A stretch of 64,000 bases of DNA from Gracilariopsis chorda (lineage: Eukaryota; Rhodophyta; Florideophyceae; Gracilariales; Gracilariaceae): contig NBIV01000010.1 in NCBI GenBank assembly GCA_003194525.1, positions 1 through 64,000 on the forward strand. Direction: 5' to 3'. The position numbers and the translations under genes were made by a program. Position 1 is the stretch's first letter; the number at the start of each line of letters is the position of its first letter. Shown piece after piece: positions 1,461 through 55,280 of this stretch. Under the pieces are notes generated by a model. The model searched no databases, was not told where the DNA came from, and was given only the letters and a program-made list of their open reading frames with translations.

Positions 1461-1796
1461 GACGATACACTGCACTATGCAGAAGATTCCGAAGACGGAA
1501 GAGAAGTCTCCGAAGAGAAGAGGACACAGGAAGAGATCTGGCTACAGAAGGTTACACGAAGTAATGGACTGGATAGGGAAACCAATGGTCATTGGACGTC
1601 ACACCGCCTAGCGGTCCGACCGAAGTAACGGTTTAATGAAGAATACCGCCTAGCGGTCCAGCATGAAGATGCTATGAAGAAGAAAAAGAAGAGTCCGGAC
1701 ATACGGATATAGAAGAAGGAAGTCGTTTACCACAAGCTATGGAGCGTTAAGCGCTAACCTATATCAGGTGTGTGTGCCAAGGTCCAGGATACTGAT
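1461..1796. other. Convergent 3' spacer with duplicated hairpin
   Basis: Non-coding gap between the ends of two convergent ORFs (pol on +, antisense ORF on -). It is purine-rich on the + strand (AGAAGA runs). A 13-base hairpin with arms ACCGC and GCGGT and loop CTA occurs twice, at 1603-1615 and 1645-1657. The equivalent gap in the complete copy (34687-34877) also holds small hairpins, so the region may serve as a two-way transcription end. That function is inference. Confidence 0.5.
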
Positions 1797-3696
1797 TTAG
1801 GATGAGCCGCTCGTTGGCGGTTGGTAGTTCGCAGACGCGAAAGCCAATAACTCGCTCACGCTGGTGAGGTTGGAAGGCGCAACCACTCCAATGGACTGGA
1901 GGTGAGCCCTGAGGGCAACGGCCTGAGGGTCCACGGGGACCGGAGATGCGGTAGACGGAGAAGCAGCCGCACTGGCGGCCATATTCCAGCCATCTGGAGC
2001 AGCCACATGCTGGCCGGATCCGTCGAGATCGTCGACCATCGCCGCTCCCGGGGCTACGGCCTCCTCCATCTCATCGGAGTCGTCATCCACCATTGGATCA
2101 TCCTCGTAGGAACCGTGCCAGTCATCGGAAAACATGAACCCAACCGGGTGGCCTCGCGGAACGGAGCGTGGTACATCGCGTAACGCTAGCGCGTGAGCCC
2201 GTGAAGTCACGGATACCTCCCAAGGGTCATAGAAGACGAAGTTGCCAGCGTTTGGATTTCTCCGGCCTGGAGAGCGATCATGCCTGGAAGGCTCACCGTC
2301 AGGGACGTTGGAGGCTGGGACTGTATCCCAGTTAACCATATCGATGGTGTTCAGAAGGCACTGAAGCTCATCCACATTGGCTTCGGATCCCAGAGGGATA
2401 TAGAGATCCAATCGGCGGATAACCTGGCGTAGGTGAGGAGGAATGTACCACAGACGGTTCTTGTCGTACACCTCCCAGAGGAGAAACGCGGCAACGCGAG
2501 CAGCCCATTCGGCGAGGAAGAGAGTCCAGTAACCGGAATCCGGATTGTTGATTAATCGTGAACCGATGTAGCTGAGGCACGGAGGCATCTCCGCAAAGCA
2601 TCCCTCGGGACTTCGAACCTGCTCCACCAATGGGGAAGAGGTACATACCGGCCGCGCATCGCGGATGGACGGAGCCTCTCGACCTCGAGATTTTGGTATG
2701 GTACCAGGAACCCGAAGCGGGAGCGCGCCTTTCGCTCAAACCGGAGTCGGTCGAAGAAGGATCCGCGATGATTCGGACGACGAAGATATCGGAACTCTGC
2801 ACGCAGAATTGGGCGCCTCCAGAGGAGCATCCCGGCTTCTATTGGAGTGGACCGGAACGGTGTAGATGGCTGGTAGGCAGCAAGGTTCTCGCAGTATGAG
2901 ACTTCACCATAGGTACGGTACCGCGAGAGGTCAAAGTTGTATTCCATTGGTATCAGCTCATCCGGATAACGCGCGCGGGCGAGACGGTCGTAGGCGACCT
3001 TGGCCATCCGGCACGGGCTTCATTCAGCGTCTCGAAACCATATCTGGTGCGCTTCCGTGCGAGGAACTGTGGCTCTACCGCGATACGCGTTCTCCAGTCG
3101 AAGGAGTCGACCAAATCCCGGCCTAGTCCCCCTGGGAGCTCGCCCTCCTCCACATAGGAGTCGATGAGGTCCGAGTCGGAAACCCATGTGGGGTGGAACC
3201 AGGGCGCACGCGAAAAGAGGAGAGCGTCTTCCCGGGGATTGCGGGCCCAAAGTGTCGATGGTGACACCCAGCCGGCGGCGGTCGCAGTGATCGGTATCGC
3301 TTGAGCGGAATTCCAGGCGGCGATACTCGCGGCATCCGAGGCATCCAAGGTTGGAACATGAGACGATCCTCCAGGCAGAGGCAAGGAGAGGAACCCAGAG
3401 GTTGGGTGACGAACCCGCGACCCCGGCGTCGCGGAGGAAGGTTGTCCGCTCGCGGAAGTCCCCTGCAGGGCGCCCGCAGGCGGGTTGTTCGAAAACGGAG
3501 TGTTGGTCATAGCAGAGAGGGGCGCAGAGTCTGTTGAAGAAGGTACTGAGGGTTGATCAGTTGTAACCGTGTTGGTACGGGGGACCGGTATCTCGGCGAT
3601 TCCCTTGTCGGGACTATTTATACCCTCGCGCCTCATCTCCTCACGTCTATACTCACGTTCGTTTTCGGCCCTTAAGGAGGGGGATGTGTAGTGCAA
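1797..3696 (-). pseudogene. Antisense accessory ORF of family A' (two frameshifts)
   Basis: Three overlapping - strand frames (3696-2953, 3007-2552, 2630-1797) together match the 595-codon ORF at 32899-34686 from end to end. Shared blocks include APWFHP, WRTRIA/WRHRIA, SYFRTRGE-like, AEFRYL, RSRFG, PYQN, FYDPWE and the acidic tail DDPMVD. Two frameshifts, near 2960-3000 and near 2560-2630, break it. Its ATG at 3696 lies 10 bases inside the 3' LTR; the reading starts across the polypurine tract in reverse. The protein is W/R/Y-rich in the middle, with Ser/Pro/Thr-rich N-terminus and acidic C-terminus; I recognise no known domain. Because the copy is oriented opposite to pol and lies between pol and the LTR, it is an antisense accessory gene of the element rather than a host gene. 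Confidence 0.8.
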
Positions 3697-13553: not shown

Positions 13554-14960
13554 TCATCCACCACCACCGCCGCCAGCGGAGGCGGAGGCGGAGGCGGAGG
13601 CGGAGGCGGAGGCGGAGGCGCCGCCGCCGCCGCCGCCAGCAACGGCAGCAGCAGCAGCAGCAGCAGCAGCAGCTGCTGCTGCTGCCTTTTCCTCATGCTT
13701 TCTCACATGCTTTTGCATGTTGTTCTTTCTCCCAAAGCTCTTGCCACACGTATCGCACCTGAACGGCCTCTCGCCCTTGTGCGTCACTGAAAAGTGCTCC
13801 TTAAGATGACTCTTCCATCGAAACGCCTTTCCACACAGTTCACATGAAAACGGTTTGTGTTTCTCATGTACCAGACGAACATGATTACCCAGCGTACTTC
13901 GCCACATAAAAGTGCAGTCACACTTGGGGCAACGAAACGTTCCACTATGTTCATGTACCACGCGAATGTGATTCTGCAGAGTCACTTGATTGCGTAGCCA
14001 TCGTAAACAGTGCTGACACTGCACGTTCTTCCCGTCCTTCCGCTTGTTACGGGAGCTGCTTGCAGCACCATTCGTCGCCGGCGTCGACCTCTGCACCGGC
14101 AACGGCGACGGCGCTGGTGCTGGTGGAGGAGGCAGAGCCCGAGGTGGGGGCGGAGGCGGAGGCGGAGGCGGAGGCGGAGGCGGAGGCGGAGGCGGCGGCG
14201 GCACAAGCACGAGTGAACCAGCTGGCGCCAGCGCCGGCGGCGGCGCGAGAACGGGCGCAGGAGCAGCTGCGCCCGGCCGTGGGCGCGGCGGTGGTACATG
14301 CGGCTGCGTCCGACTTGGCGGCAGCACGCGCGGCGGCGGCGGCAGCGGTGCCGCATCGAACGCCACGCCGCCAATAGACGGCAGCGCGTTCGGAAGCGGC
14401 CATGAAGAAGAGCCGGGCAAGTGAGTGGGCGGCGGAGGCAAGCGTGGTGAAGGAGACGGTGAAGGCGACAGACGCGCCGAAACGTCTACAATGTAGTCCG
14501 GTTTGGGTGCATGACGGAGAAGATGTGACAGGTCGGAGCGCGTGGGACCGCGCGACAGGGAGAGGGTGTTGGGCGCTGTGGAGGGGACGCGCACGGTACG
14601 TGCGGTGAAGGTGGTGTGTAGGCTGCGTTGCGCGGGGCTGCTGAGCACGTCGAGAGGGACGCGACCGGCGGAGTCCTCGATGATATCTACGTGTGGGGAG
14701 GCGTCGTGGGGACGGGGGCGCTTGGGCGGGCGGGGAGGGAAGGGATGGTAGGGAAGAGGCGGATGGTCGCGAGGGTGGGAGGTGGAGGAGTCGAGAAGGG
14801 GTGGGGGAGGAGGGAGGCGACGCGCGGAGTAAGCACGCTCGAAGCCAAAGGCGGGCGCCAGTCCGGGCTGCAGCGCGATTGGCAGCTCCGGGACGGGCGG
14901 GCGGGGGCGCGTGTCCGTGAGCGATGAGAAGGCGCTCTTGAAACTGGGCAGCACGGACAT
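13554..14960 (-). CDS. C2H2 zinc-finger protein, four fingers
   Basis: Intronless 468-codon ORF, ATG at 14960. The first ~310 residues are Pro/Ser/Arg-rich and contain a run of about 22 prolines. Four C2H2 fingers follow at residues ~313-421: CQHC...HIRVVH, CPKC...HVRLVH, CELC...HFSVTH and CDTC...HVRKH, all with a 12-residue Cys-His spacing and 7-residue linkers, two of them (KGERPFR-type) close to the classical linker. The C-terminus is homopolymeric: about 15 alanines, then glycine blocks and a Ser-Ala repeat. A nuclear DNA-binding regulator is the natural reading; targets unknown. The repeat-rich tails are in unstable GC-rich microsatellites and probably vary in length among individuals. 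Confidence 0.9.
   Translation of the reverse strand: MSVLPSFKSAFSSLTDTRPRPPVPELPIALQPGLAPAFGFERAYSARRLPPPPPLLDSSTSHPRDHPPLPYHPFPPRPPKRPRPHDASPHVDIIEDSAGRVPLDVLSSPAQRSLHTTFTARTVRVPSTAPNTLSLSRGPTRSDLSHLLRHAPKPDYIVDVSARLSPSPSPSPRLPPPPTHLPGSSSWPLPNALPSIGGVAFDAAPLPPPPRVLPPSRTQPHVPPPRPRPGAAAPAPVLAPPPALAPAGSLVLVPPPPPPPPPPPPPPPPPPPPRALPPPPAPAPSPLPVQRSTPATNGAASSSRNKRKDGKNVQCQHCLRWLRNQVTLQNHIRVVHEHSGTFRCPKCDCTFMWRSTLGNHVRLVHEKHKPFSCELCGKAFRWKSHLKEHFSVTHKGERPFRCDTCGKSFGRKNNMQKHVRKHEEKAAAAAAAAAAAAAAVAGGGGGGASASASASASASASAGGGGGG
13574..13688. repeat. GGCGGA hexamer array and CAG/CTG tract
   Basis: Eight or so GGCGGA units (about 13576-13621), then GCC triplets, then CAG repeats turning into CTG repeats (about 13646-13685). 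The CAG and CTG parts are complementary and can fold back. All of it is inside the C-terminal coding region of the four-finger gene, where it codes for Gly, Ser-Ala and Ala runs. Confidence 0.85.
14145..14202. repeat. Second GGCGGA hexamer array
   Basis: The same GGCGGA hexamer repeated about eight times, inside the same gene as the array at 13574-13688, but read in another frame so that it codes for the long proline run. Confidence 0.85.
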
Positions 14961-30438: not shown

Positions 30439-31234
30439 TGAAGTGCAATGTCCTCAGAGAGGGATTCTTGGTACTTGTTTGATTTCCCGAATGTTTCGGT
30501 AATGTAGTCATTGCAGGAACTACGACCACTAATAGTGGATTTGACACGTGGGACACGGAAGAGTCCATTGGCGGTTGGCCACAGTAGTGGGCATGAACTA
30601 CCAAAGTGGAGTAATTTAGTTAATTCTAATTATTATTTTTACACCCATTTCTGGGATGGTTAGTACTTAGTGCGCCGGCGAGTTGCTGTTGCACCAGTAA
30701 AACTTCCCCAACAAGGGACCCCAACCTGGGAAATTGGCTCTAGACCTCACCGCCTTCGCGTGTTCTCTACTCCTCTTTGGAGGGAAACACCGTCGCATAC
30801 GGGAAGTATAACCCCCTTTCCTATCTAAAGGACCCAAGTATTCGGACTGTTATTCCAGCTGTCTTGGTGTTCGCCTTGTATAAGGTTTATTTACCGGCAC
30901 GGCCACTAGTCTTCGTCACGACACTCGTGACTCAGCTCCCCTTTACTTTTCCCTTTGTAGGGTGGCTTTCCCACTACCTATGGCTCGTGTTCGCGCGTGC
31001 GACTAACGTGGAAACCTCATCTCTCTAGAGGACGACCACCTCCATACACCGCTCCTGCGGATACCCGATTCTTGCCTCAACCTCCCTGAGCAAGTCGCGA
31101 CGAGTGGCCTCGGCCTTACAACTCGACATAGTCGTGCCACTCGTGGGAGGGCTCTACCCAACTGGGCTCACCTCTAACGAGGAAAGATACCGAATGTCTT
31201 TCAGTGCATTCCCGCTTCCGGGCATTGCACTACA
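30439..31234 (+). repeat. Solo LTR, family A variant, with target duplication ATAAG
   Basis: Begins TGAAGTGCAATGTCC and ends GGCATTGCACTACA. Flanked by ATAAG on both sides (30434-30438, 31235-31239). It is a diverged relative of the family A LTR in + sense. Hairpins present: CCGT/ACGG (30790/30799), CCTT/AAGG (30874/30882), GTCACG/CGTGAC (30915/30926), CCGC/GCGG (31049/31057), ACGAGTGGC/GCCACTCGT (31100/31136), CCCG/CGGG (31211/31219). Inserted in the integrase of family F just before the HPQTDG motif. Confidence 0.9.
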
Positions 31235-32010
31235 ATAAGTTCAGTTTCACTTTCAAGGTTCGCATTAGTTCTTTCCAGAAGCTTCCTGTAAATCTTGAAT
31301 CTTGGTCTGATATTATTTTCCGCAGTAGTCCATGGTGTTTATGCACTTCTTTATTATAAAATACTTTTGCTGTATCTTTCGCATTTACATTGGATTTCAT
31401 TGGTATAAGATGCGTTCTCTTTGATATTTTGTCCACAACTACTAACGTGGAACACATTTCGTTTTTGGTTTTTGGCAAATCGAATATGAAATCCATTGAT
31501 ATGACTTCCCACTTTTTCCTGGGAGGTGGAAATGGTCCTAATATACCTTGTGATCTTTGATTACGACTTTTAGAAGTTTGACATTCATAGCAGTGTTTAA
31601 CGCATTCCTTAATATCTTTATTCATCTTTGGCCAGAAATAAGATCTTCTGATCAAAACTTTAGTTTTCTAAGAACCTGTATGAGCGCCCAGTATAGATAT
31701 ATGACAATCATAATAGTATTTGATATCTTAATTCCACTTCTGGAATACGTAGACGATTCTCAAGGTCTCATCTATTATTTCTTCTCTAAACTGGTTCTTT
31801 ATGGTTATTCATTACATTTTTAAAGAACGCATCTTGTACATAATCTGTAATTAGTCTTTTTGATACTTTTTCTGGTACTTGAATTGTCGTTATAGTCATA
31901 AATGTCTTTATAAAATCAACTGATACTTCGTGTATTTCTTTGTCTTTTCTTGATCATGCATCGGCAACTTTTTTTAGTTTGCCTTTGATATATTTGATCT
32001 CGTAATCAAC
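31235..32010 (-). pseudogene. Family F RNase H end and integrase N-half
   Basis: Directly below the family A element (32010) the frame reads VDYEIKYIKGKLKKVADA, the end of RNase H, with a stop in place of the Leu of the usual ADALSR. A shifted linker follows, then 31655-31240 gives the integrase: RRSYFWPKMNKDIKECVKHC-YEC (zinc site), SMDFIFDLP with the first Asp, and ISDQDSRFTGSFW with the second. Cut at 31234 by the solo LTR. Confidence 0.8.
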
Positions 32011-32842
32011 TGTGGTGCAATGCCCCAAAGGGGAAAAACACCGAAAGAAGTTCGGGATCTTCCTCTCACAAGGTGAACCCAGTTGGGTAGAGCCCTCCCA
32101 CAGGTGTCACGGCGAAGCCGGTTTGTAAGACCAGGGACACCTGTCGCGACTCGCGCAGGGAGGTGAAGGCGAAGAATCGGTATCCGCGTGAGCGGGGTGT
32201 GATCCTCAGTAGAGGTATGTTTCCACGTGAGTGGGGGTGTGTGAGCGGATGCGCACACGAGGGCCGCGGATAGCGGGAGGTGCTACCCTAAAAAGGGGAA
32301 GAAGGAAGGGCGAAGAGGAGGAAGAGAGGACGAAGTGAGTCGCGAGAGCGACGGGGGTGAACGGCGATGCCGGTAACAATATCCCTATACAGGGCGAACC
32401 ACCAATGCAATTTGAATAATATGACTCCCAGTGATGGGTCCCTTTAGATGTGCAAGGGCGTTAGATGTACCGTGGTTCACGGCGTTTCCCTCCAAGGAGG
32501 AGTAGAGCACGCGCGCAAGCGGTAACAACTAGAGCCAATTCCCCAGGTTGGGGTACCTTGTTGGGGAAGGTTTACTGGTGCGACGGCAGTGCGCCGTCGC
32601 ACTAAGTACTAGCTTCCCAGAAATGGGTGTGAAAATAATAAATAATATTAACTAAAATACTCCACATTTCGTGGCAACATCCACTACTGTGGCCTGTGGC
32701 CAACCGCCAATTGACCCAAAACTGTGCCCCACGTGTCCATACCCACCATTGTGGGGCGTAGTTCATATACACACTACACAACCGATAATATCGGGAAAAC
32801 GATCAAGTACCAGGAATCCCTCCCTGAGGGCGTCGCACTTCA
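32011..32842 (-). repeat. 3' LTR of the complete family A element
   Basis: 832 bp. On the + strand it runs from TGTGGTGCAATGCC to GTCGCACTTCA. The internal side at 32843-32857 is the complement of a polypurine tract with nine Gs. ACAGGTGTC (32100-32108) and GACACCTGT (32136-32144) form a 9-bp stem. A seven-base duplication (GGCCTGT near 32690) is absent from the other LTR. Confidence 0.92.
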
Positions 32843-32845
32843 TAT

Positions 32846-32857
32846 CCCCCCCCTAAG
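32846..32857 (-). other. Polypurine tract of family A
   Basis: On the element strand, a purine run with nine consecutive Gs ending three bases before the 3' LTR. It is the expected primer site for plus-strand DNA synthesis. The antisense ORF begins only 42 bases away on the other strand. Confidence 0.75.
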
Positions 32858-32898
32858 ACGGGAAAACGACCGTGGACGCGGAGGAATCCCAGACGAAA

Positions 32899-34686
32899 AT
32901 GGGTGATAAAAGCGCGTGCTCCGTCTCCGGTTCTCCGGTAAATCCCTCTGCATCAGAGTCACCAAGCGCACAAACGACAACAACAGCCACCCTCGACAAG
33001 GGAGAAATGAACGACGACAATAACATCAACAACCACAGCCAACCTCCGAGGCTTCTCGGGCGATACACCACCGGTTTCCGGTCAGTTCCCCTGCCTCAGG
33101 GCGATCGACATCCGGTACAACCGGGAAACATGGCTGCTGCAGCCGACCATCCCTTCGCACTACCACCTTCGGTGGTGTCCTCCGGAGCCACTCCGGTGTC
33201 CAACTGGCCAACCTACAACACCCTGGTGGGGCTCAACCCCATGAATCAGAATCACGCCTCGCGCCTGCGCCTTGCCCCGTGGTTCCACCCGGTCGCTGTC
33301 CTCAATGAGAGATTGGTCACCGCTTATGTGGATGGCTCAGACACCCTTCCGGGGGATCTGTCCAGAGCAGTCACCACATCGTGGGATTGGCGTCACCGGA
33401 TTGCGATTCCGCGTCACCACCTCCGAAGACATTCGGGTGAGACCGTCACTGCAGCGCAGACCGCGTTGACGCGCATGGCGTACCAACGGCAGAGCCGGGC
33501 TCCATTCGATGTACCGGTCCCACCGGAGTTTGGCTTCGACGTTAGCTACTTCCGCACTCGCGGGGAGATTGGGTACGGCGAGAACCTGTTCCGCCTCGAG
33601 ACCCTCGCTTGGAGGAATTTCCCCGCAGCGCGGCAAGAAGCCCTCTGTTGGGAGCGCCCGATTATTCGGGCGGAGTTCAGGTACCTTCCCCGGCAATACC
33701 GGTCCAACTTTCTCCAAAACTCCATCCGCTACGAGCGGCGTTGGCGATCCCGATTCGGGTATTTCATCCCGTATCAGAACGTGGAGATAGAGCGGATTGC
33801 GCGGCCTCACCGACTAGGTCGGTATGTAGCACTCCCCGAGTGGTGGCGCTTCCATGAAGCCTGCCGGGGGTGCTACATAGAACTCCCGCCGGTACTTACG
33901 TACCTCGGTTCGCTGCTCATGCAGGATCCCCGGTCGGGGTTGTGGTCCGTAGTGGTTACGGAGTGGGCGGCCCGCACTGCGGCTTATATCCTCAACGAGG
34001 GGTACGACCAGTATCGTCTCTGGTTCCTTCAACCGCGTGTGCGGGCAGCGATCCGAAACCTGGATCTTCGCATCCCCCTTGGGGGCCAGGCCAACAATGA
34101 AGAGGTCCTCCTATTACTTGGGTACATCGACAGCGTTAGCTGGAGTGAGGTCCCGCTGGAGCAAAGCGGTCGTCTGGATGGCGGCAGCGGTAACACCGGT
34201 GGTACGGTACTCGGTAGAAACACAGCCCTTGCGGGGGATTTTATCTACTTCGACCCCTGGGAGTTCCGGGAAATTTCCTCCGAGGAGGCGCGCGAGCTTC
34301 GCGATACGCCCCGGCATGTGCCGGAAGACCACCCGGTGGGGTACGTCGATTCTGACGACTACTACCGCGCATACGGCGGGGATGACCCAATGGTCGATAA
34401 CGAACCGGAAGAACCCGGGGAGATGGACGTAGAGGAAACCGGCACTAGCGCGGAAGCTTTCCCAGAGGGGGTATCTCCCGCCGAGCCGGCTGCTGACCCT
34501 TCGGTGGCAAAAGCCGGACCTTCTATCCCCAGCGGGGTGACGGCGAATGAAAACGAGATCATCGCACGTTTTCTCCGGGGTGCCGGTCTTAGCGCTGCCG
34601 AGGTATCGGGGGATGTCACCACCATGGCGGACGCGTTGGCCTACCGCCTTGCTGGTGGTTACGCCCCAGGCAACGGCGAAGAGTGA
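32899..34686 (+). CDS. Antisense accessory gene of the family A chromovirus
   Basis: Open for 595 codons from ATG 32899 (MGDKSACSVSGSPVN); the same frame is open 9 codons further up from a GTG. It runs opposite to gag-pol and ends 191 bases from the end of pol. N-terminal ~100 residues are Ser/Pro/Thr/Asn-rich; the middle is rich in Trp, Arg and Tyr (APWFHP, SYFRTRGEIGYGENL, AEFRYLPRQYRSNF, RSRFGYFIPYQNVEIER, LPEWWRF, VTEWAARTAAYIL); the C-terminus is acidic (DDPMVDNEPEEPGEMD) with a short helical end. No signal peptide, membrane span or known domain. The related gene at 3696-1797 has the same blocks, so the protein is conserved between two diverged elements. The start is 57 bases from the 3' LTR, so transcription in antisense from that LTR is likely. 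Antisense extra ORFs exist in some plant Ty3/gypsy lineages; I cannot tell whether this one is related. Confidence 0.8.
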   Translation: MGDKSACSVSGSPVNPSASESPSAQTTTTATLDKGEMNDDNNINNHSQPPRLLGRYTTGFRSVPLPQGDRHPVQPGNMAAAADHPFALPPSVVSSGATPVSNWPTYNTLVGLNPMNQNHASRLRLAPWFHPVAVLNERLVTAYVDGSDTLPGDLSRAVTTSWDWRHRIAIPRHHLRRHSGETVTAAQTALTRMAYQRQSRAPFDVPVPPEFGFDVSYFRTRGEIGYGENLFRLETLAWRNFPAARQEALCWERPIIRAEFRYLPRQYRSNFLQNSIRYERRWRSRFGYFIPYQNVEIERIARPHRLGRYVALPEWWRFHEACRGCYIELPPVLTYLGSLLMQDPRSGLWSVVVTEWAARTAAYILNEGYDQYRLWFLQPRVRAAIRNLDLRIPLGGQANNEEVLLLLGYIDSVSWSEVPLEQSGRLDGGSGNTGGTVLGRNTALAGDFIYFDPWEFREISSEEARELRDTPRHVPEDHPVGYVDSDDYYRAYGGDDPMVDNEPEEPGEMDVEETGTSAEAFPEGVSPAEPAADPSVAKAGPSIPSGVTANENEIIARFLRGAGLSAAEVSGDVTTMADALAYRLAGGYAPGNGEE

Positions 34687-34877
34687 GCCTCTTTTGTCCA
34701 GTTTCCTGGTGTTCCTTCCCTGGCTATGCCAGTTAGTGTAGTGTGGTATTGTGGGGAGCTAGCTGCTCCCTTGAATAAACTTTCCCGTTTAGAACGGTGC
34801 TTCTCGGTTGAGTTCCCCGTCTTCGACGGACCTTGCATTGTTATCCTTTCCTATCGCTCTCCGCTCGCGCGGCAACG
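34687..34877. terminator. Convergent 3' spacer with hairpins and AATAAA
   Basis: Gap between the antisense gene and the end of pol. It holds GGGAGC/GCTCCC with loop TAGCT (34754-34770), CCGT/ACGG (about 34788-34800), CCGTC/GACGG with loop TTC (about 34828-34840) and a GAATAAAC poly(A)-signal-like hexamer on + near 34773. A shared two-way 3' end is likely but inferred. Confidence 0.4.
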
Positions 34878-35627
34878 TTACCCAACTTGGGCATTAACCA
34901 GCGTGGCTGGGGCTGCAGTTCCCGTTTGACGGTGGTATCGCACGACCTGCGACCGTGGGAGGTGTTCAATTGGCTCCCACGTATCCCCACTGGGGTCGTA
35001 CCCGTACCAGCGGATGCGGTATTGTAGAATACCATCCTGGTCCCAGGTGTGTCCGACAAGTCGGTCTACTACGAACTTTCGTTCGTAGACCTGCCGGCCG
35101 TGCCAGGTGGTGGTTGTACTTCCTTGCGGGGGCTGCCCGCTGTGCGGTATAATGTCCCTTAGCAGGGTGTTCGGCGATAACTCCGGCGTTGCCGTGCGCT
35201 GTGATAGTGGCCGCTGCTCATGCGGGAAGATATCCCTCAAGAGGGTGTGTTGTGCCACGGTTTTCACCGGCAAGTCATTCCCCATTGGGGCAGGTTCATT
35301 TCCGCTTTCGCGGTATTGCGGGCGAACTGCCAGTCGGAGGGGGACTTGGGTTCCGCCTTCGCGGTTGAGCTCACGAACCGCGAGTTTGCGGGAAGATGAC
35401 CGCTCCTGCGGAATCGGCATTTCCACAATCCCCTGGGGGGTCCCGTGCGACACGGTGATTGGGTGGCAAACCGCCTCCCTGCCAAGCGCACGAGCGCTCT
35501 GCACCATACGTTCCGGCGATGCCGTGGTGTCCCCGGCTATTGACGGGTTGCCTGGGGCTAACTCCGGTACACCGGTATTTTGGTCAAAATTCCCCTTTGG
35601 GGGGTGCCGAGCAGGTGCCGATGACAC
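34878..35627 (-). pseudogene. Family A pol C-terminus with chromodomain
   Basis: A 249-codon frame. The last ~70 residues are a chromodomain: YERKFVVDRLVGHTWDQDG, YRIRWYGYDPSGDTWEPIEH, LPRSQVVRYHRQ. Before it is a long Pro/Arg/Glu linker with a repeated motif (NTLLRDI-PH, twice: HTLLRDIFPH, NTLLRDIIPH). It is out of frame with the upstream segment ending at 35648, so a frameshift near 35650 breaks pol here. Confidence 0.88.
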
Positions 35628-35647
35628 CCTTTTCAGGGGCTTGGCCG

Positions 35648-36178
35648 CTAAGTGCGGTGCACCGTCTCCACGCGGAGGAGCAGCGTCCGGGATGGCCGGT
35701 TTCGAGCGTGCGATGGCGTGCGCTTTTTCCGAGTTCCTCGGTTCTTCCCCGCAGCGTTGCGAAAACGAGTGTTCTCCTCCCCCTTCTTAGACGGAGCGGC
35801 GGGATAAGGGATAACATTCCCCGCCTGGCGGGTATAAATGCGCGCCAGTGGAGCAGACGTGGTAGGGGCGGGCGCTGAGAGGCCCGAATTACCCGGCTGA
35901 GCCGGTGAGTCCGACAGAGTCGGTAGGTCTGAGAGTCCCCGGCTGGGGTGTGGTAGTACCGTAGGCCTAGTACTCCCGGAGGATTCCGGTGTTGCAGAGT
36001 CCGTAGAAACGGGGTTGCCTGGATCCAGAACTACCTCTGACGAGGGAGGAGGGGCAAGGACAACACGATCACGGGAAATCCGTTCGTGCCTGTCGCCCAT
36101 CTCTACCACGACAGTGTCGGTGTTAACAGAGATGACCTTGAAGGGTCCGTCCGCCACAGGCGAGAGTTTGTGACGCAT
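35648..36178 (-). pseudogene. Family A pol, post-integrase segment
   Basis: Begins MRHKLSPVADGPFKVISV, with RHERISRDRV and a proline-rich linker. The frame is open upstream to about 36230 (NNYVFIKKEYYNPERE) and matches the left element at 1-343. A one-base shift in a C run near 36232-36236 separates it from the integrase frame. Confidence 0.85.
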
Positions 36179-37113
36179 CTCCCGTTCCGGGTTGTAGTAC
36201 TCCTTCTTGATGAAGACGTAGTTATTTGCCCGAATCGGGGGGTCTTTCCTCGCAAGCGAGCGTCAAAATCCCGCTTGTAAGCGGCTTGGGCCCGTGCCAT
36301 AGACTTCCGCGCAGCGGGGACCAGCTTGGAAAGCCATTGCTTCCATTTCTGCCGGTAGATACCGACAGATGCGAAATTTTCCAAGGTAGCTTGGGGTTCC
36401 AGCGCCACAGGCAGGGGTGTTATAGATACAACCAACTCGAATGGCGAAACTCCGGTAGTCCGGTGTACCTGCGTATTGTACGCGTAGGTTACCGCATCAG
36501 CGTACATGTCCCAGTTCTTTGGGTGGTCTGCGACGTAGGAACGTAACGCCGCGAGTAACGTCCGGTTAAACCGTTCAACTTGCCCATTACACTGGGGGTG
36601 GTAGGTAGTCGTGAACAAGTTCTTGACATCCAGGATGCGACAAACATCCTGGAAGAACTTGCTCACGAACTGTTTCCCGTTATCGGAGAGCACCTCCACG
36701 GGGGGACCGTAGACGAAAATCCAGTGCGTCACCAGAGCCTGGGCCACCGTGAGAGCGGTTATCCTCCGAAGAGGGACAGTCCGTACCACCTTAGAAAAGC
36801 GGTCGGTAATAACAAGAAGAAACTTGTTTCCACGTTTCGTGGTGAGTAATGGTCCGAGAATATCGATCGCGATAAACTCGAGCGGCGCCCTTGCGGGGAA
36901 TAGTTTCATCTTCTTCGCATTTTTGCGGAGTTTGACGCGATTCTTCGCGCATTCGCTACAAAACCGCACAGTTGCGTAGCAATCCACCACCATTGCGGGC
37001 CAATAGAAATCCCTTCGCAGGGTTAGGTAGAGTTTCCTCCCACCTGGGTGACCTCCAATGGGGGCGTAGTGTGATAGATGTAACACCCGCGATTGCAGGG
37101 AATGTGGTACCAC
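36103..37113 (-). pseudogene. Family A integrase
   Basis: Zinc-binding site HLSHYAPIGGHPGGRK ... CSECAKNR, then the catalytic core with IAIDILGPL (Asp), VLSDNGKQFVSKFF (Asp) and YHPQCNGQVERFNRTL (Glu), and WDMYADAVTYAYNTQVHRTT. All three acidic residues are present. It joins the RNase H frame across one in-frame TAA (KV-stop-AHPQIVVPHSLQS) at about 37129, and shifts frame near 36232. Apart from those it is complete. Confidence 0.92.
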
Positions 37114-37128
37114 AATCTGTGGGTGGGC

Positions 37129-37770
37129 TTAGACCTTCCTTACGAGGTAGCCTTTGTCGTTTACCCCGAAAGGGAGATCTTCACCACCGTTGATACGGGC
37201 ACGAATCCTCGTACAGAATGGGTTGCCGAATTGTTCTCGGATCATTTCTTCCGGTGATACCGGTACAAAGTTTCCCGGTAACGGGTTCTCAGATTCATCT
37301 CGCGATGCGAGTAGTTCGTCAAAGTGAGCATCCTCGTCCCAGTTTTCTGGCCCAGCCTCGACGGCACATTCCGGATCATCCGGGTCCATGGCCATGAAAC
37401 ATGGGACTTCATCATCCTCCATTGGGAGTGCTTCCCCACTTGTGGGTAACCGCGACAAAGCGTCGGCCTGGGTGTTCTGTGCGCCCTTTTTATAAATGAC
37501 TTGAGAGTCATATTCCGCGAGGCGGAGTCTCCAGCGCTTGAGGCGTCCCGACGGGTCGGAGATATTCATTAACCACCTCAATGAGGAATGATCCGTGTGC
37601 ATGGTGAAGTGAACTCCCATAAGGTAGGGGTGCAGAGTGGTCATCGCCCATAGGATGGCGAGGCACTCTTTCTCCGATACGGAGTAGTTCCGCTCATGAA
37701 CATTGAGCGAACGTGACCAATAACCAATTGGATGTCGTTCCCCCTCGGGGTGGTTTGAAAAAGAGCACAC
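37129..37770 (-). pseudogene. Family A RNase H
   Basis: Frame with HPIGYWSRSLNVHERNYSV, EKECLAILWAM, TDHSSLRWLMN and the end TQADALSRLP, the RNase H of gypsy elements, then an acidic linker. It is out of frame with the reverse transcriptase frame, which it overlaps at 37641-37770; a one-base shift near 37700-37770 explains this. Confidence 0.9.
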
Positions 37771-39965
37771 CCGACTTGGTAATTGCTCGAGTCCGTATCT
37801 ACGGAGTATGGCAACCCAAGTTTTGGGAGATGTAGGATTGGTGCTGATGTGACAGCCTCCTTCAAGGAGTTGAAAGCTTCCGATTGCTCGGGCGTAAATG
37901 TTCCCAGTTTTGGGGGGTTCCCCTTTCGCAACAACGCGTTCAGGGGCGCCGCGGTATCCGAAAAGTTCGGGATAAACCGTCGATAGACGTTGACCAGCCG
38001 CAAAAAGGAGCGCAGTTCCGTTTGAGTACGGGGCTCTTTTGCCTCAACGAGGGGTTTGACTCGAGCTTTCTCGATCGCTAACCGTCCAGGACGGATAATG
38101 TGACCCAGATACTTCACAGTATCTGTGAAAAACTCGCATTTCCTCAACTTGAGGGTAATTCCCGCATCGCGGAGTACGGTCAGCACGTCTCGGACGTGAG
38201 TGAGATGGTCGTCCAACGAGTTGTAGAAGATGATAATATCATCAAGGTAGACCAGACAACTCCGCCACTTAAAGCGGTTGAGTAGAATATCTACTGCACG
38301 CTGAAAGGTGGCGGGGGCGTTGTTTAACCCAAATGGCATCCGCTTGAAGCAGTACGTTCCTGCGTGGCAGGTGAATGCGGTTTTATCGCGATCCTCCTGT
38401 CTGACAGGTACTTGCCAATATCCCCAATTGGCATCAAGGGCCGTAAAAACGGTGGCGTCTCCAAGGGAGTCAATGCACTCGTCCATACGAGGGATAGGGT
38501 ACGTGTCCCTAACGGTCACGGCATTGAGCCGGCGGTAGTCGACACAGAACCTCCAGGTTCCGTCGGCCTTTAAAGCCAGTACAACTGGGGATGCCCAGGG
38601 TGATTGAGCGGGCTCAATCACACCTGCGCGGAGCATCTTGTCCACTTGGGACTGCTCCTCTTCCCGAGCTTTCGGACCTGCCCTGTAAGGGGGTTGTGCA
38701 ACCGGTCGCGCACCGGGGATTGAATCGATCCAGTGTTCCGTTGCGTTAATCTCGCCAAGCGAGCCATCCCACATTGTGGTGAATTCCCGTAACATGGTAC
38801 GGAGTTTGTCGCAGTGCGACTCTGGCACGTGGCTGAAGTCCAGCGCTTCAAGTGCCTTTTCCGGATCAATCCGGTCGTTGCTTGATGGAGCATTGTCCTG
38901 TGGAACAGGTGTGGTTCGCAATTCCGAGTTACTCGGTATTTTCGACGCTGAAGTAGCGGTTTCCTCCCCCTCCTTAGACTTGACGTCTTCGGACGGCGGG
39001 GTGAACTCCTCAGAAGAGGTGGTAACACCGAGTACATCTGCGGCTGTCATCTTTGTTGGCAGCATTCCCATAGGATGGGGGGTTACACTCCCAATTACTT
39101 GGTGTTTGACCAGATACTGGGGGTGTTTGCCAAGGTTGGCAACCAATATCCGGAAAGGAACATCCGGGGAAATGGAGACAATTCCATTAGCCAGCGCCAG
39201 CCGGGATTTCTCGTACAACGAGGCGAGGGGTTGTATAACCCGAAGACCGTGTTGACGGGAATTTACCTGCACCCAGACTTGGGACTCAGCCGGTATAGAA
39301 ACCGAGGCAGCGACGCGGAGCTTGGTGGACTCGCGGGACGCGGGCGGTGGTTCCTGCGCAGCAGGGAGCGGAACTTGTTTCCGAGAGGACCGCTTTAGCG
39401 GGCGGCGAACAATCGGAACCGACGATCCGTCGTCAAGTTCTACACGCCTGAGGCGGGGCCTGATTGCGTCGACGAATCTGTCGCAGTAATCACATCCCAG
39501 TATGACTGGTGCTGCCAATGAACGGCAAACGATGAAGTCCAACTTCACCACAGAGGTACCAAGTCTCACGACGAGGTCCACTGTGCCCACCGTTTGTAAC
39601 GGATTGTTGTTCGCATCCGAAATGTCGGGGACCGCGTCAGAGCGGATACGAGACCGCACAAGCGGGGGTAACAATGATTCCACAACAAAGTTGGGGCCTG
39701 CACCTGTATCCAGGACGGTGAGAAACCTCACCATAAACTGGGGATCAAGGCCAAGGTCGGCATAGACCTTATAATTGCGCTTGGCCAAGACCAAGACTCT
39801 ACCGGGAATCCGGGGATTTTTACTCCGTATCCACGGGCGACGCAACACACCGAGGTGCGCAGAGTCCGCGTCAGCGGTGTCTTTCCTCGAGAGGACTTTC
39901 ACCGGGGAGCGAGGCGAGGACGCCTCGGGCCCCAACAGCCTCGTTCTTGAGGACGCCTCTCCCAA
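37641..39965 (-). pseudogene. Family A protease and reverse transcriptase
   Basis: The frame opens directly after the gag stop in another frame (TEGVSPLGEASSRTRLL). Aspartic protease at FLTVLDTGAGPNFV with APVILGCDY later; reverse transcriptase from WASPVVLALKADGTWRFCVDYRRLN, through FTALDANWGYWQVP, RMPFGLNNAPATFQ and the catalytic VYLDDIIIF to the thumb and FSDTAAPLNALLRKG. All key motifs are intact. The last ~30 residues are out of frame, so the break to RNase H lies near 37720-37770. Confidence 0.93.
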
Positions 39966-39982: not shown

Positions 39983-40318
39983 TTAGTTTTCCGCCTTCGG
40001 CGGTGGGTTGGTTTCCTCGACAACGAGTGCTTCATCCCGTTGACGGGGGTTTCTATCCGCATAAGCGGGGGTTGCAACGGATGGTTGCGTGATCTCCCGA
40101 ATCGGGGTGTATGAAGCTTGCCGCGCACGCGGGGTCTGTGGTAGGGCATGGGAAAAGTCCGTTTTAGCACGGAGGTAGGAAGCCGTCGGGACGGAACGTT
40201 TCTCCTCTGGAGTGAGGGCCTCATAATTTGCCACTACCTTGGCCATATCCTTCAGTGAACAAATACACTGAGGTGAGGTATGGCCATGGGCATAGCACAG
40301 GTGGCAAATCAGAGCCAA
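39983..40318 (-). pseudogene. Family A nucleocapsid
   Basis: Begins MALICHLCYAHGHTSPQC, a CCHC zinc knuckle (C-x2-C-x4-H-x4-C), then a Pro/Arg-rich tail. It overlaps the capsid frame by ten bases in another frame. Its stop TAA at 39983 lies next to the start of the pol frame, which is reached by a -1 shift. Confidence 0.85.
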
Positions 40319-41307
40319 TACCGCGACACGCGGATTATTATTCCGAGTATCGGAGAAGCGAACCGCAGGGCGGGTGTCAGTCCATCCAGGCCGTTGATAA
40401 CGGGATTGACCGTTTGAAAACGGGAGTCGTTGGGTTGAACCCGACTGTTACCACCGTATAGAACGGGATCTTCTGTTCCCGTATCATGGGTCATCTCCGT
40501 CGTTGACGGTAAATCACTGGTCGGTATCGACACACCATCCTCCTGCACTAAATGCACGGTATCAAATCCCTGTTCAGGGTTCCCATCCGCAGTGAGCGGG
40601 AGTGAGGAAGCTTCGCTTTCTAGCAACAACGGCTTGGCGGATTTAGACTGATTGTTCGGAGTTCTTGCACGAAGTGCATCACCTTCCGCTCGAGCGTGTT
40701 GGACCAGCTCGAGATAGGTGATCCTCCGCTTGTCCTCCCGATAACGGGTAACTAAACTCCGGATTGCCGGTTCAAGACCATCGATGAACATGGTACTACG
40801 CTCCCCAGCGGGGTATACGTTACCACATCTGTGGAAAGCCTTGTTAAAGCGCACCGAGTAATCGGTCTCTGTCTCTCCAGCACGCTGGCGTGTATCTCGC
40901 AAAGCGAGGATAGCCCGCTGAATAGCGGTGTTTGTGGCGTAGGAGCGCAGAAGATACTGCACAGCCTTCGGCCAGCAAGTAACTCCTCCCTCGGAGGCAC
41001 GAGAAGATCCTCTGACAGAGTTGTATTGGTCCTCCGCCATTCCCCGTAAGAAATACGCTAAAGCCAAATAGGCTTGTCCCTCATTCATACCGAGGATATC
41101 GGCCTCCGCTACAAAGTGGGATAGGAAATCCAGTACTAGGACTGGGTCCTCTCCAGTAAAATACTGGTTGCGGAGCGAGAGCTGCATTCGTTTAATGCAT
41201 TCTCGCACCTTTCCCGTACCACGGGGCGTACGTCCAAGTGACGAGTCTTCGAGCCGGTAGTACCGGTATGATAAAAGCTTCCGGTAATCCGGGTTTGTCG
41301 GTTTCAA
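40309..41307 (-). pseudogene. Family A gag capsid
   Basis: 332 codons. Typical gag capsid sequence: YFTGEDPVLVLDFLSHFV, LALAYFLRGMAEDQYN, LLRSYATNTAIQRAI, GETETDYSVRFNKAFHRC, MFIDGLEPAIRSLVTRY and ELVQHARAEGDALR. It loses frame at its end (IIIRVSRYWL) where the zinc-knuckle frame takes over, so one shift divides capsid and nucleocapsid. Confidence 0.88.
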
Positions 41308-41346: not shown

Positions 41347-42156
41347 TCAGACCACACCTTCAGTGGCCGATGACCGCTTCGAGCGGGAGGAATAGCCTCG
41401 CTTCTCGTCCTCCGAGTCAGAGTCCGAGGAGCTCGAGCTAACCGAATGGTTTCGGGATGAGTCCGACGATGTCGAAGAATCGGAGTCCGAATATTTTCGG
41501 TGGTGTTTCCGTCGATGACGGCGTTTCTTCTTCCCAGCAAGCTGGTCGTGGTGCGATGCCTCGTTTACCGGATCATCCGGGGATGGTTTGTCCATGAGGA
41601 CGAACTGCTCCAGCGTCTCCAGGCGGGCACCAATCCGATCAAATCGGGCTCCAACTCCTTCGATGAAGGTGGCGGGTTGTCCCAAACTCTCCAACACGGA
41701 GTTGACGTCAGACCGTAAAATACGGAGTTCCTCGGCGACCTCCTTTACGGGGGTTGCCGAGACCACCTCTTGGAGGGATTTTAGTTCCCCTACAAGGGTG
41801 TCATGGGCGGTCCACAGAGCGCGGACCTGGGATTCCAGGGGAGTCCCCTGGGGGTTGTTATCGCCCATTCCACCGGGGTTTGAAGCCGCGACAGCGGGAG
41901 CGGGTCGGTGTGCCTGGGGCACTGCGGCAACAGCCGGACTCGATGCTGCATTCCCCTGCGGGGGTGATAACGAGGGCAAAAGGAGGTTCCGGGGTTCCCG
42001 GTCGGGGGTATCATTCCGCGATGAGGCGGCGCCAGTACGGCTGGAACTTGACCGTATAGGGATACGGGGTACGAACCGAACTTCGGAAGTGTCCGCGTTG
42101 TCGCGGGAGCGACTACGCGTAACCACTGGCTCCGCATCGGAGGGATTTCTCGACAT
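41347..42156 (-). CDS. Family A gag N-terminal ORF (coiled coil, basic tail)
   Basis: 269 codons from ATG 42156 (MSRNPSDAEPVVTRSRSRDN). Ser/Arg/Pro-rich first half, a coiled-coil stretch (RALWTAHDTLVGELKSLQEV, RFDRIGARLETLEQFVLM), then a basic block KKKRRHRRKHHRK and a Ser/Asp-rich tail. It ends 40 bases before the capsid ATG in another frame. Either the true gag was one protein now shifted, or the element makes a separate basic N-terminal protein. It is the first ORF inside the 5' LTR. Confidence 0.75.
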   Translation of the reverse strand: MSRNPSDAEPVVTRSRSRDNADTSEVRFVPRIPIRSSSSRTGAASSRNDTPDREPRNLLLPSLSPPQGNAASSPAVAAVPQAHRPAPAVAASNPGGMGDNNPQGTPLESQVRALWTAHDTLVGELKSLQEVVSATPVKEVAEELRILRSDVNSVLESLGQPATFIEGVGARFDRIGARLETLEQFVLMDKPSPDDPVNEASHHDQLAGKKKRRHRRKHHRKYSDSDSSTSSDSSRNHSVSSSSSDSDSEDEKRGYSSRSKRSSATEGVV

Positions 42157-42244: not shown

Positions 42245-42258
42245 AGGTCGGGAGACCA
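42245..42258 (-). other. Candidate primer-binding site
   Basis: On the element strand TGGTCTCCCGACCT begins three bases after the 5' LTR end. It starts with TGG, the complement of a tRNA CCA end. I could not name the tRNA with confidence. Confidence 0.45.
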
Positions 42259-42261
42259 CTT

Positions 42262-43088
42262 TGTGGTGCAATGCCCCAAAGGGGAAAAACACCGAAAGAA
42301 GTTCGGGATCTTCCTCTCACAAGGTGAACCCAGTTGGGTAGAGCCCTCCCACAGGTGTCACGGCGAAGCCGGTTTGTAAGACCAGGGACACCTGTCGCGA
42401 CTTGCGCAGGGAGGTGAAGGCGAAGAATCGGTATCCGCGTGAGCGGGGTGTGATCCTCAGTAGAGGTATGTTTCCACGTGAGTGGGGGTGTGTGAGCGGA
42501 TGCGCACACGAGGGCCGCGGATAGCGGGAGGTGCTACCCTAAAAAGGGGAAGAAGGAAGGGCGAAGAGGAGGAAGAGAGGACGAAGTGAGTCGCAAGAGC
42601 GACGAACAGATACGGCGATGCCGGTGGACAGGACTCCCTATACAGGGCGAAACACCAATGCAATTGGAACAATTATACTCCCAGTGATGGGTCCCTTTAG
42701 ATGTGCAAGGGGGTTAGATGTCCCGTGGTTCACGGCGTTTCCCTCCAAGGAGGAGTAGAGCAGGCGCGCAAGCGGTAACAACTAGAGCCAATTCCCCAGG
42801 TTGGGGTCCCTTGTTGGGGAAGGTTTACTGGTGTGGCGGCAGTGCGCCGTCGCACTAAGTACTAGCTTCCCAGAAATGGGTGTGAAAATAATAAATAATA
42901 TTAACTAAAATACTCCACATTTCGTGGCAACATCCACTACTGTGGCCAACCGCCAATTGACCCAAAACCGTGTCCCACGTGTCCATACCCACCATTGTGG
43001 GGCGTAGTTCATATACACACTACACAACCGATAATATCGGGAAAACGATCAAGTACCAGGAATCCCTTCCTGAGGGCGTTGCACTTCA
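42262..43088 (-). repeat. 5' LTR of the complete family A element
   Basis: 827 bp, + strand ends TGTGGTGCAATGCC and GTTGCACTTCA, followed by the target duplication TCAAC. Nearly identical to 32011-32842 except in scattered positions and a patch near 42600-42650. Confidence 0.92.
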
Positions 43089-43093
43089 TCAAC

Positions 43094-46494: not shown

Positions 46495-48045
46495 TTACGG
46501 TTGTGGAGGGATGCAGAACTGAATTGCTTCAGACAGCGCTGGGTTTGCGATCGGCACGGGCATGGAATGAATTGTGTCCGCATTCGCGGATGTAAGGTGC
46601 AGGTCATGCGGAAGCAGCACATGGTCATTCCTTCGAACGCGCGACAATGCGACATACAACAGACCGGCGCAGAAGAGGTTGGATTGCACATCTACAACCA
46701 AGACATCGAACGACTTTCCCTGTCTATTGTGAACGGTAGCTGCAAACGCGAGACGAATGGGGAACTGCCTTCGAATCATGCGAATGTCTGCGAAAGAAAA
46801 CTCGAAGTCGATACGATGCAGGAGCTGTCGTTCCAGCACCTCTCCGTTCTTGTCGAATCGAGCTACCTGCTTCGTAAACTGATCGACACGCACGACTACG
46901 AACAGCTTTCCATTGACCACAGAAGGATGCAGCATGTTCCAAATGGCCATAACTGGAACAATAATCTTCAATTCCAAGTTATGAGGTGATACTCCGGTAG
47001 GCGCATACTTATATGGAAACTCGGGAACAAAAGTATTGGTGACGTTGGGCTCTGAGTATTGTCCGCCGTCAGGTTGTACCGTCGTAGCTGACAGAAGAGT
47101 GGAGCGTTCACACGGAAACAGATCCAGCGCTGCCGCATTGTGTTCGTCGACCAACTGGTTTGTGGACGCAATGGGCATTTTGCTGAGATCCACATCCTCC
47201 TTGCGCCGTGTTGTAAACCACTTCCACAGGAATTGGTAAGCATTTTTCATTCCACTGATAGATCCGAGAGGGTAGTGGAGCGTTGTTGGATATTTTGGTG
47301 CGTGCAATGGAACGTAAAAACGACGGAAATGCCGGATCATCGGCTTGGCGTACTTGTTCGGTGAGGTACAGTACTTGAACCGAGCATAATATCCACAGAC
47401 CATTCTTCCACAGCACAATTCGTTGAGAACCTTTGTGTGCACTCGTCTCACATTTGTACTTAGCTCGGCCTCCATGTACACCTGCGGCACAACCGGAAGC
47501 AGCTGGGAGTAGTCATCGGACAGAACGATGGTCAAGCCAGCAAACGGAGGCGGGTTTTCCATTCCGCTGCAGTAAAGAACTTCGAGCAAGGCCTCCATGA
47601 GTTCAAAGACCTTTCGTGGGAGCATGGACGCCTCATCCAAGAAGAGCAGTTGGATTTCGCGTAGCAGTTCGGCCCGTTGAGATCGGGGACCTTACTTTGA
47701 CAAAGTGGGTGTAGTGCCGCTTGTACTGTCCTTGTCAGCTACAACCAGTCCGAGCAGGCTATGTAAATTGCAGCCACTCTCGTACAAAGATGCTGCAATG
47801 CCTGTTGTAGCAGTAATTTCGGCGAGCATTCCTTCCGAATCAGCGATATCACGAAGGAGGTTGAGCAAGTATCTCTTTCCGGTTCCTACGGATCGTTGCA
47901 CAAATAACACGTTTCCAGGAGTGCTTGCTTGCTCTTGCAGCGCCTGCCATTGTTGCAATGCGGCAATGAAAGTGTCAATGACTTGGTTTTGGCGAGGTTT
48001 TAGGGTGGCGTACCTTGACTGCAACTTTGACGCATTTCGTAGCAC
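46495..48045 (-). pseudogene. Helitron helicase domain
   Basis: 48045-47692 has the Walker A region NVLFVQRSVGTGKRYLLN, where the usual GTGKT has become GTGKR, and TATTGIAASL. 47640-46495 continues with MDEASMLPRKVFELME (motif II DEASM), GLTIVLSDDYSQLLPVVP (motif III), LAFAATVHNRQGKSFD and LLYVALSRVR (motifs V and VI). This is the PIF1-type helicase of Helitrons. A stop or shift at 47640-47692 splits it. Element sense is -. Confidence 0.88.
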
Positions 48046-52962: not shown

Positions 52963-54102
52963 ATGAAGCAGAAGGACTATCAAATCGGAGCGGCTATCCG
53001 CCGCAAACAAAAGCGCTCACGCATAACTAGTCTCGCGTTGCTTGCTGGAGCCGAAGATGAGGTTTTGTTACGTCTGCAGAAGCGATACCGACGGGTTGCA
53101 AGAGACGTTCGTCTCATTCAACGTCGATCTAGACACATCAGCGTCACGTCATTTAATGTGAACGTGTTTAGTGATGAACAATCCCTATGGAACTTCCGAT
53201 TTCGAAAACAAGATCTTGGCGCTATCATCGCGCTTACAGGCTGGAATTCTAGAAGAACAAAGCGTTCAGGATACGTTTGTGATCCTGTGGCTGCTACATG
53301 TATAATGTTGAGAAGATTAGCTTCTCCAATCAGATGGGTGGATGTTGAGGTGATGTTTGGTATGCGTTCATCAGCACTGTCAGACGTCTTCTGGGAGGTA
53401 GTTGAAAAATTTGTTGCAGTACATGGGGATCTGTTAAGCACGTTTCAGTCAAGCCTAATGGAGAGTCGAGCCCGATTATATGCAGAAACTATTGCGTCTA
53501 AAGGCGCTCCGCTTGACAATTGTATTGGGTTTATCGATTGTACGAAGATAGAAATGAGCCGGCCAGGCGGTCCTTCTGCAAATCAGAGAAGCTGCTATTC
53601 TGGGCATAAGAGGATGCATTGTCTGATATATCAGACCATCACTACTCCTGATGGCCTAGTGTTTTACTTGTACGGCCCAGAGGTAGGACAGCGTCATGAC
53701 ATGACTTTATATCGTCAGAGTCAATTAGATGGTGTTCTACAATCTTCATTGGTTATCGACAATGTACAATACTGCATATTTGGGGATGCAGCATACGTTC
53801 TCAGGCCATGGTTGCAAACTGCCTTCTCTCGTGTCGGATGTTGTGCAGAGGAAGCAATTTATAACAAGTCTATGAGTGCGGTTCGCGAAGGTGTGGAATG
53901 GTCGTACAAAGATCTCAAACAGATCTGGTCTTCCCAAGATTACAAACGACAGCTTAAAGTTCGCCAAGCACGGATTGCATTGATGTACAAATCCTCCGCT
54001 TTACTCTGGAACTTCAAAGTGTGTCTCCACTCTGGAGGCCAAAGTGCTTCCTATTTCAACTGTGCTCCCCCTTCCCTTTCCGAATATCTAGGTGAGGCCT
54101 AA
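52963..54102 (+). CDS. Harbinger-type DDE transposase
   Basis: 379 codons, ATG 52963, intact. The N-terminus is basic. The DDE_4-type nuclease core has GFIDCTKIEMSRPGG (Asp ~192), YGPEVGQRHDMTLYRQS (the HD motif), CIFGDAAYVLRPWL (Asp ~275) and EGVEWSYKDLKQIW (Glu ~312). Spacing and motifs are those of PIF/Harbinger and ISL2EU relatives. It cuts and rejoins the element at its inverted repeats, together with the MYB-like partner. It converges with the partner gene; the stops are 10 bases apart. Confidence 0.92.
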   Translation: MKQKDYQIGAAIRRKQKRSRITSLALLAGAEDEVLLRLQKRYRRVARDVRLIQRRSRHISVTSFNVNVFSDEQSLWNFRFRKQDLGAIIALTGWNSRRTKRSGYVCDPVAATCIMLRRLASPIRWVDVEVMFGMRSSALSDVFWEVVEKFVAVHGDLLSTFQSSLMESRARLYAETIASKGAPLDNCIGFIDCTKIEMSRPGGPSANQRSCYSGHKRMHCLIYQTITTPDGLVFYLYGPEVGQRHDMTLYRQSQLDGVLQSSLVIDNVQYCIFGDAAYVLRPWLQTAFSRVGCCAEEAIYNKSMSAVREGVEWSYKDLKQIWSSQDYKRQLKVRQARIALMYKSSALLWNFKVCLHSGGQSASYFNCAPPSLSEYLGEA

Positions 54103-54112
54103 GAGACAAATC

Positions 54113-55126: not shown

Positions 55127-55145
55127 ACGAACCTCATATAATATA

Positions 55146-55164
55146 CGCGGGAATAATTCCCGCG
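55146..55164. promoter_or_regulatory. E2F-like palindrome and TATA in the MYB-gene promoter
   Basis: CGCGGGAAT (55146-55154), one base, ATTCCCGCG (55156-55164): two inverted TTCCCGCG sites, the E2F consensus form. On the - strand TATATTATATG follows, 15-20 bases above the ATG at 55126. A cell-cycle (S-phase) control of the element is an attractive reading. Confidence 0.55.
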
Positions 55165-55280
55165 AATTGAACAAAATACAAGTGAAGCGAACTTCACAAA
55201 CTCGGGCTGTATGAGAATAAATGACTTGGCTCGGAAATCAAATTTTCTCTTAGACCGGAAACTTGTAATACGTTTCACGA

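Follow-up and report, generated by a model that had tools for sequence, protein, structure and literature searches.

A conserved gene antisense to gag-pol in chromodomain Ty3/gypsy-type elements of the red alga Gracilariopsis chorda

The window, a stretch of 64,000 nucleotides from a contig of Gracilariopsis chorda (NBIV01000010.1), holds a structurally complete chromodomain Ty3/gypsy-type LTR element, which lies on the minus strand and belongs to the group of elements called family A. An antisense accessory ORF (aORF) of 595 codons sits within this element, between the chromodomain end of pol and the 3' LTR, and is convergent with gag-pol. The features of the element are the following, the boundaries of the LTRs and of the TCAAC repeats having been set by eye:

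32006..32010, no strand, left target site duplication TCAAC (by eye)
32011..32842, minus strand, 3' LTR of the family A element (LTR alignment)
32846..32853, minus strand, polypurine tract, a G run on that strand, adjoining the 3' LTR (by eye)
32899..34686, plus strand, aORF, 595 codons, ATG to TGA (ORF list, conservation)
34774..34779, plus strand, AATAAA 87 nt downstream of the aORF stop, candidate poly(A) signal (sequence; kind of site common to families B2 and C)
34878..35627, minus strand, pol end with chromodomain (PF00385, E 1.9e-10)
36103..37113, minus strand, integrase part of pol (PF17921 and PF00665)
37129..37770, minus strand, further pol ORF in another frame, RNase H end by position only (ORF list)
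37641..39965, minus strand, reverse transcriptase part of pol (PF00078, E 3e-36; PF17919)
40309..41307, minus strand, gag, by position only, without Pfam match (ORF list, Pfam scan)
41347..42156, minus strand, gag start, by position only, without Pfam match (ORF list, Pfam scan)
42246..42258, minus strand, candidate primer binding site, 3 nt inside the 5' LTR (by eye)
42262..43088, minus strand, 5' LTR of the family A element (LTR alignment)
43089..43093, no strand, right target site duplication TCAAC (by eye)

Between the two LTRs, 32 of 827 aligned bases are mismatched, and the alignment contains 10 gap columns besides. The minus-strand Pfam matches comprise a reverse transcriptase, an RNase H-like domain, an integrase and a chromodomain, and the pol pieces that carry them span 34878-39965. 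As the chromodomain follows the integrase at the C-terminus of pol, the element is a probable chromovirus. The original prediction had given it this name, and as far as the chromodomain is concerned it is borne out by PF00385 at the pol end and by the chromodomain motif found downstream, on the opposite strand, at all 60 aORF loci tested in families A, B1, B2 and C. Pfam also recognised the domain in three of four further ORFs from families A, B2, C and B1, the miss being that of B1. The element had moreover been described as complete, which holds for its structure (LTRs, TCAAC) and not for its coding part: gag-pol is broken over several frames in this copy, while in other copies the integrase match lies within a single open frame of 1,875 codons. 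Just outside the element, stretches in 30439-31235 are 74-89% complementary to the LTR and inverted, being the remains of a diverged LTR.

The aORF starts with the ATG at 32899 and stops at 34684-34686. Its position, strand, size and convergence with pol are all as predicted, and the 57 bases claimed between the 3' LTR and the ATG were right to one base, 56 being counted. In the window copy the stops of aORF and pol are 191 nt apart. A second element (1-4602), of family D, had been said to carry the same gene at 3696-1797; the gene is indeed present, with a chromodomain on the opposite strand, but it is broken in two frames. An unbroken family D member was found at locus L061. The two parts in the window are:

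1797..2630, minus strand, C-terminal part of the broken aORF, second element (ORF list, family comparison)
2953..3696, minus strand, N-terminal part of the broken aORF, second element (ORF list, family comparison)

Several other ORFs of the window deserve mention. A single ORF on the minus strand (9536-12619) encodes a membrane pyrophosphatase of 1,027 aa (PF03030), which is 80% identical to one metagenome protein and 26% identical to the nearest named eukaryotic protein (Chondrus crispus), and which lies far from other families. By eye, 13554-14960 (minus strand) is an ORF encoding C2H2 zinc fingers as well as long stretches of proline and of alanine, 46495-47640 (minus strand) a helicase-like ORF, perhaps of a Helitron, and 52963-55174 a Harbinger-like transposase ORF adjoined by a convergent DNA-binding-like ORF.

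Copies, selection and transcription signals

The search covered 91.3 Mb of genome. With the protein as query, 74 family A copies were scored, the best of 1,953 candidates, and an internal stop is absent from 60 of these 74 best-scoring copies, a share which is biased upwards. A 34-base pattern from the aORF core, allowing at most 3 mismatches, occurs at 339 sites genome-wide (control pattern, 0), and searches with two distant relatives led to 68 and 98 places, in overlapping sets. Intact proteins of at least 500 aa are encoded by 54 of 65 fetched loci, these being the best-scoring ones and leaning towards intact genes. The 54 proteins form five families (29, 2, 10, 11 and 2 members) with identities of 31-61% between families.

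Family A copies are 93-96% identical to the window copy, so that open frames alone prove little, and a by-product of base composition or of a gene on the opposite strand has to be considered. This is extremely improbable: the frame is kept at 31-61% identity, the shifted sense frames give pN/pS values above 1 (1.25 and 1.44), and no overlapping sense gene was found, as stops number 21, 24 and 10 in the three minus frames of 32844-34877, with an open stretch of at most 214 codons.

Selection was compared between frames and between neighbouring genes. For 25 family A loci, pN/pS is 0.288 in the aORF versus 0.636 in the adjacent C-terminal part of pol. Across 28 intact family A loci the two core segments have ratios of 0.164 and 0.213, whereas the first 100 columns reach 0.516 and the tail 0.387; the core contains invariant Arg, Trp and Tyr positions. 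The antisense frames of the aORF show 1.20, 0.38 and 1.64, the low value belonging to the frame that has its third positions in common with the aORF. Polymorphic columns at codon positions 1, 2 and 3 number 84, 77 and 151 (30 loci). By family, dN/dS amounts to 0.284 in A, 0.234 in C, 0.611 in B2, 0.648 in D and 0.698 in B1, the last three values stemming from low-divergence families or single pairs. These substitution patterns indicate that selection acts on the amino acids of the aORF. A dN/dS near 1 had been named as an observation that would speak against the gene, and the pN/pS of 0.29 does not do so; together with the five families, this value upholds the claims of a long conserved antisense gene and of an origin other than chance capture. 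The aORF is thus confirmed as a real gene, conserved and protein-coding.

Further, aORF and chromodomain identities rank together (Spearman 0.86 over 10 family pairs, which are not independent of each other), so the aORF was most likely inherited along with pol. A pattern from the pol C-terminus was detected at 464 sites genome-wide, more than the core of the aORF.

As regards transcription, AATAAA follows the aORF stop by 87-91 nt in 4 of 4 family A copies listed, by 91 nt in 4 of 4 family C copies and by 75 nt in 3 of 4 family B2 copies listed. The chance of such a motif in the range is 0.0004 for A, 0.003 for B2 and 0.003 for C (first-order Markov shuffles, one copy each). It was not found after the stop in either of the two B1 copies, and family D has the variant ATTAAA only, at +159 and +218. 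Upstream of the aORF no TATA-like box shared across the family copies was seen. The presumed leader crosses the polypurine tract, and the longest frame of the B2 and C genes extends back into it, so that their true start is uncertain. Antisense transcription would begin at a promoter within the 3' LTR or next to it and would end at the gene's own AATAAA, which in family A falls within the 191 nt that separate the two stops, just before the pol stop; the predicted transcript would encode a protein of about 600 residues.

Convergence with pol at so short a distance could also mean that the antisense RNA, and not a protein, is what matters, convergent transcription leading to double-stranded RNA or interfering with gag-pol and limiting the element, a role which has been proposed for antisense transcripts of retroelements (PMC7264820, in the passages seen). 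Such an account is unlikely, given core pN/pS values of 0.16-0.21 and a frame kept in families down to 31% identity; moreover, since AATAAA precedes the pol stop, the predicted transcript would not overlap pol. With selection on the amino acids an RNA role alone is insufficient, and the antisense RNA may add an effect besides that of the protein.

Elements that have lost the gene

Full-length members lacking the ORF had been named beforehand as possible counter-evidence, and four pol-end sites without a listed aORF beside them were examined. Two of them (L067 and L068) have one common deletion, equivalent to 32935-34714 of the window, which leaves the first 12 aORF codons; the deletion of L069 is a different one, and that of L066 is internal and in frame, so that a short ORF remains. 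This short ORF (L066 522-1052, minus strand) joins the N-terminal part of the aORF to the C-terminal helix region. Genome-wide, junctions of the L067/L068 type were detected at 137 sites, of the L066 type at 22 and of the L069 type at 20 (control, 0). The remnants left behind mark these as losses, which are no argument against a real gene; members lacking the ORF do exist, and what they contradict is that it should be needed in cis.

Integrase matches were paired with either kind of neighbour, 65 of 120 being assigned. Among the matches listed, those paired with the L067/L068 junction lie in a 1,875-codon frame in 3 of 30 cases and are stop-free in 25 of 30, and those paired with an aORF lie in a frame of at least 1,800 codons in 6 of 35 cases and are stop-free in 28 of 35. 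By eye, the L069-type junction has two adjoining integrase matches with 1,875 codons. Gene-less copies have thus arisen at least three times, have multiplied and can keep gag-pol. As they multiplied, some of them beside the 1,875-codon frame, the aORF is dispensable in cis.

Dispensability in cis is as expected of a product acting in trans; the spread of gene-less copies could likewise be explained by a gene that helps without being essential, or that is no longer required at all. The element's tolerance of the loss agrees as well with a passenger gene pursuing its own interest, such as one captured from a virus or a cell to the benefit of the host cell or of itself, which the element would neither need nor use. 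This is improbable in view of the constant place and orientation in five families, the co-divergence with pol, and the fact that no free-standing copy was noticed in searches which score the best candidates only.

Two side observations concern the surroundings of gene-less copies. In genome G000, pol-end sites on one strand repeat at about 9.3-9.9 kb in contigs C68 (57625-85986) and C70 (252002-271859), a spacing that resembles tandem arrays of gene-less elements; in the C68 row L066-type and L067/L068-type deletions are both present. At L067, an ORF of a different retroelement (442-1536, plus strand), Copia-like by eye, adjoins the gene-less family A element.

Properties and possible role of the protein

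The named relatives of the aORF protein come from Gracilariopsis chorda and Gracilaria domingensis, where they are annotated as hypothetical proteins. Pfam scans, PDB and fold comparison gave no match, in agreement with the claim that the protein has no known domain, the structure models being of low to middling confidence. An envelope-like protein, which had been put forward among the possible roles, finds no support: the gene is antisense and its protein has no membrane-like stretch, the highest 19-residue hydropathy being 0.95-1.85 in five representatives. Of the overall interpretation first offered, the conserved antisense gene, the chromodomain, the absence of a known domain and an origin other than chance capture are supported and the envelope role is not.

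A wider possibility is that of a structural or packaging protein of the particle, either a capsid accessory or envelope-like. The gene has spread as widely as the element, its divergence follows that of pol, and the invariant Arg, Trp and Tyr of the core would suit such a part. Even so it has little probability, as a membrane-like stretch is lacking, the models, of limited quality, matched no viral or solved protein in fold, and gene-less elements at 137, 22 and 20 sites fit it less well than they fit a protein acting in trans; trans-packaging could supply a particle protein to such elements.

The composition of the protein provides a further clue. The window protein has 3 lysines versus 54 arginines, with zero lysine in residues 35-537; family C proteins have 1 lysine in 658-669 residues, and a Gracilariopsis chorda relative 1 in 617. 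Asparagine, whose codons begin with AA like those of lysine, shows no depletion: K/(K+N) ranges from 0.05 to 0.29 among six aORF representatives versus 0.33-0.82 in nine other ORFs of the window, while E/(E+D) and Q/(Q+H) of the representatives are ordinary. Compared with the gag-pol pieces of its own element, the depletion in the aORF gives a Fisher's p of 2.4e-5. A lysine desert, by its published definition, is an uninterrupted run without lysine that covers 150 aa or more, or half the protein (PMC10665810, in the passage seen). All six own-genome representatives of the five families contain one (169-638 aa lysine-free), as do 4 of 5 relatives (187-610 aa; P0005, with 90 aa, does not), the relatives in this comparison being P0001-P0005, with P0006 and P0007 left out. 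Lysine gains make up 6 of 145 amino-acid variants in 28 family A copies (4.1% vs 3.1% expected). Gains at this rate give no sign that recent copies avoid lysine, which is a point against the desert reading; the depletion is a long-term feature. The desert may mean a protein shaped to escape ubiquitin-dependent removal, or a partner of the ubiquitin system.

Protein selection, co-divergence with pol, the antisense position with a terminator-like signal of its own, dispensability in cis and lysine depletion would all be explained by a translated accessory protein acting in trans on host control. The aORF is probably a genuine accessory gene of chromodomain Ty3/gypsy-type elements, whose protein would act in trans on host control of the element, be it silencing, chromatin or protein turnover; copies with the gene would serve as helpers, and copies that lost it would still be mobilisable. 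Acting in trans is one step, and the choice of a particular host target, which we infer, is another. A bolder version, offered tentatively and with a modest chance of being right, is that of an antisense helper gene whose degradation-resistant, lysine-free protein disarms silencing or ubiquitin-dependent removal for all related copies, gene-less gag-pol elements being cheaters that exploit a public good, with at least three origins. If this were true, the genome itself would have dissected a trans-acting retrotransposon accessory gene.

Comparison with known systems

Plant elements with an antisense gene in this position, between pol and the 3' LTR, are a familiar finding of long standing, although there is no agreement on what such genes do. 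They are termed aORF-3R and include Grande gene23, those of RIRE2, Retand (ORF4) and PvRetro13 (ORF2) (PMC7264820, PMC11963269, in the passages seen). The gene described here shares with them its place, its antisense orientation, its presence in most copies of a family and its conservation, which is like that of other element proteins; 339 core sites stand against 137 + 22 + 20 deletion sites, rough proportions only, as the patterns differ in sensitivity. In Retand, elements without some coding domains have also been recently active, according to the same passages. The plant hosts given there are flowering plants and Retand belongs to a non-chromovirus lineage, in contrast to the chromodomain element, unrelated protein family and lysine desert found here; Pfam scans of the aORF protein gave no match to the TRP28 domain (PF04195) of the Retand antisense protein.

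Outside plants, Boty of Botrytis cinerea, a Ty3/gypsy element, carries an additional antisense gene, brtn, between pol and the 3' LTR, and differs in its fungal host (PMC7264820; PMC8365987, citing Zhao et al. 2011; passages seen). The arrangement itself is thus already known from Grande, RIRE2, Retand, PvRetro13 and Boty. Antisense proteins of HTLV-type retroviruses, HBZ among them, likewise come from a gene near the 3' LTR and have a proposed nuclear regulatory role, a way in which the aORF protein may work as well (PMC7264820, PMC11963269, as far as seen); neither a bZIP domain of the HBZ type nor any other Pfam domain was detected in the aORF protein by the scans.

For a role in trans, analogies are offered by Grande gene23, suggested to be a nuclear protein with its own promoter (PMC7264820, in the part seen), and by VANC, an extra protein encoded by VANDAL transposons which counters host silencing of related copies; VANDAL elements differ in being DNA transposons of Arabidopsis (PMC10398659, PMC5735166, in the parts seen). 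By analogy, the aORF protein would work like the suggested gene23 protein or like the anti-silencing VANC proteins. Lysine deserts, whose published definition the aORF protein matches, have been described for proteins of the ubiquitin system, phages of pupylating bacteria, some viral proteins and toxins (PMC10665810, PMC10169902, passages seen), and the word start 'transpos' is absent from the main text of these two papers. For an antisense retrotransposon protein the desert is a concrete biochemical clue. With hundreds of copies, five families and repeated deletions, the need for such a protein, in cis or in trans, becomes testable, in a red-algal host far from the flowering-plant and fungal cases found in the literature. 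As far as the searches reach, this host, the unrelated protein family, the lysine desert and the repeated loss followed by spread are what is new.
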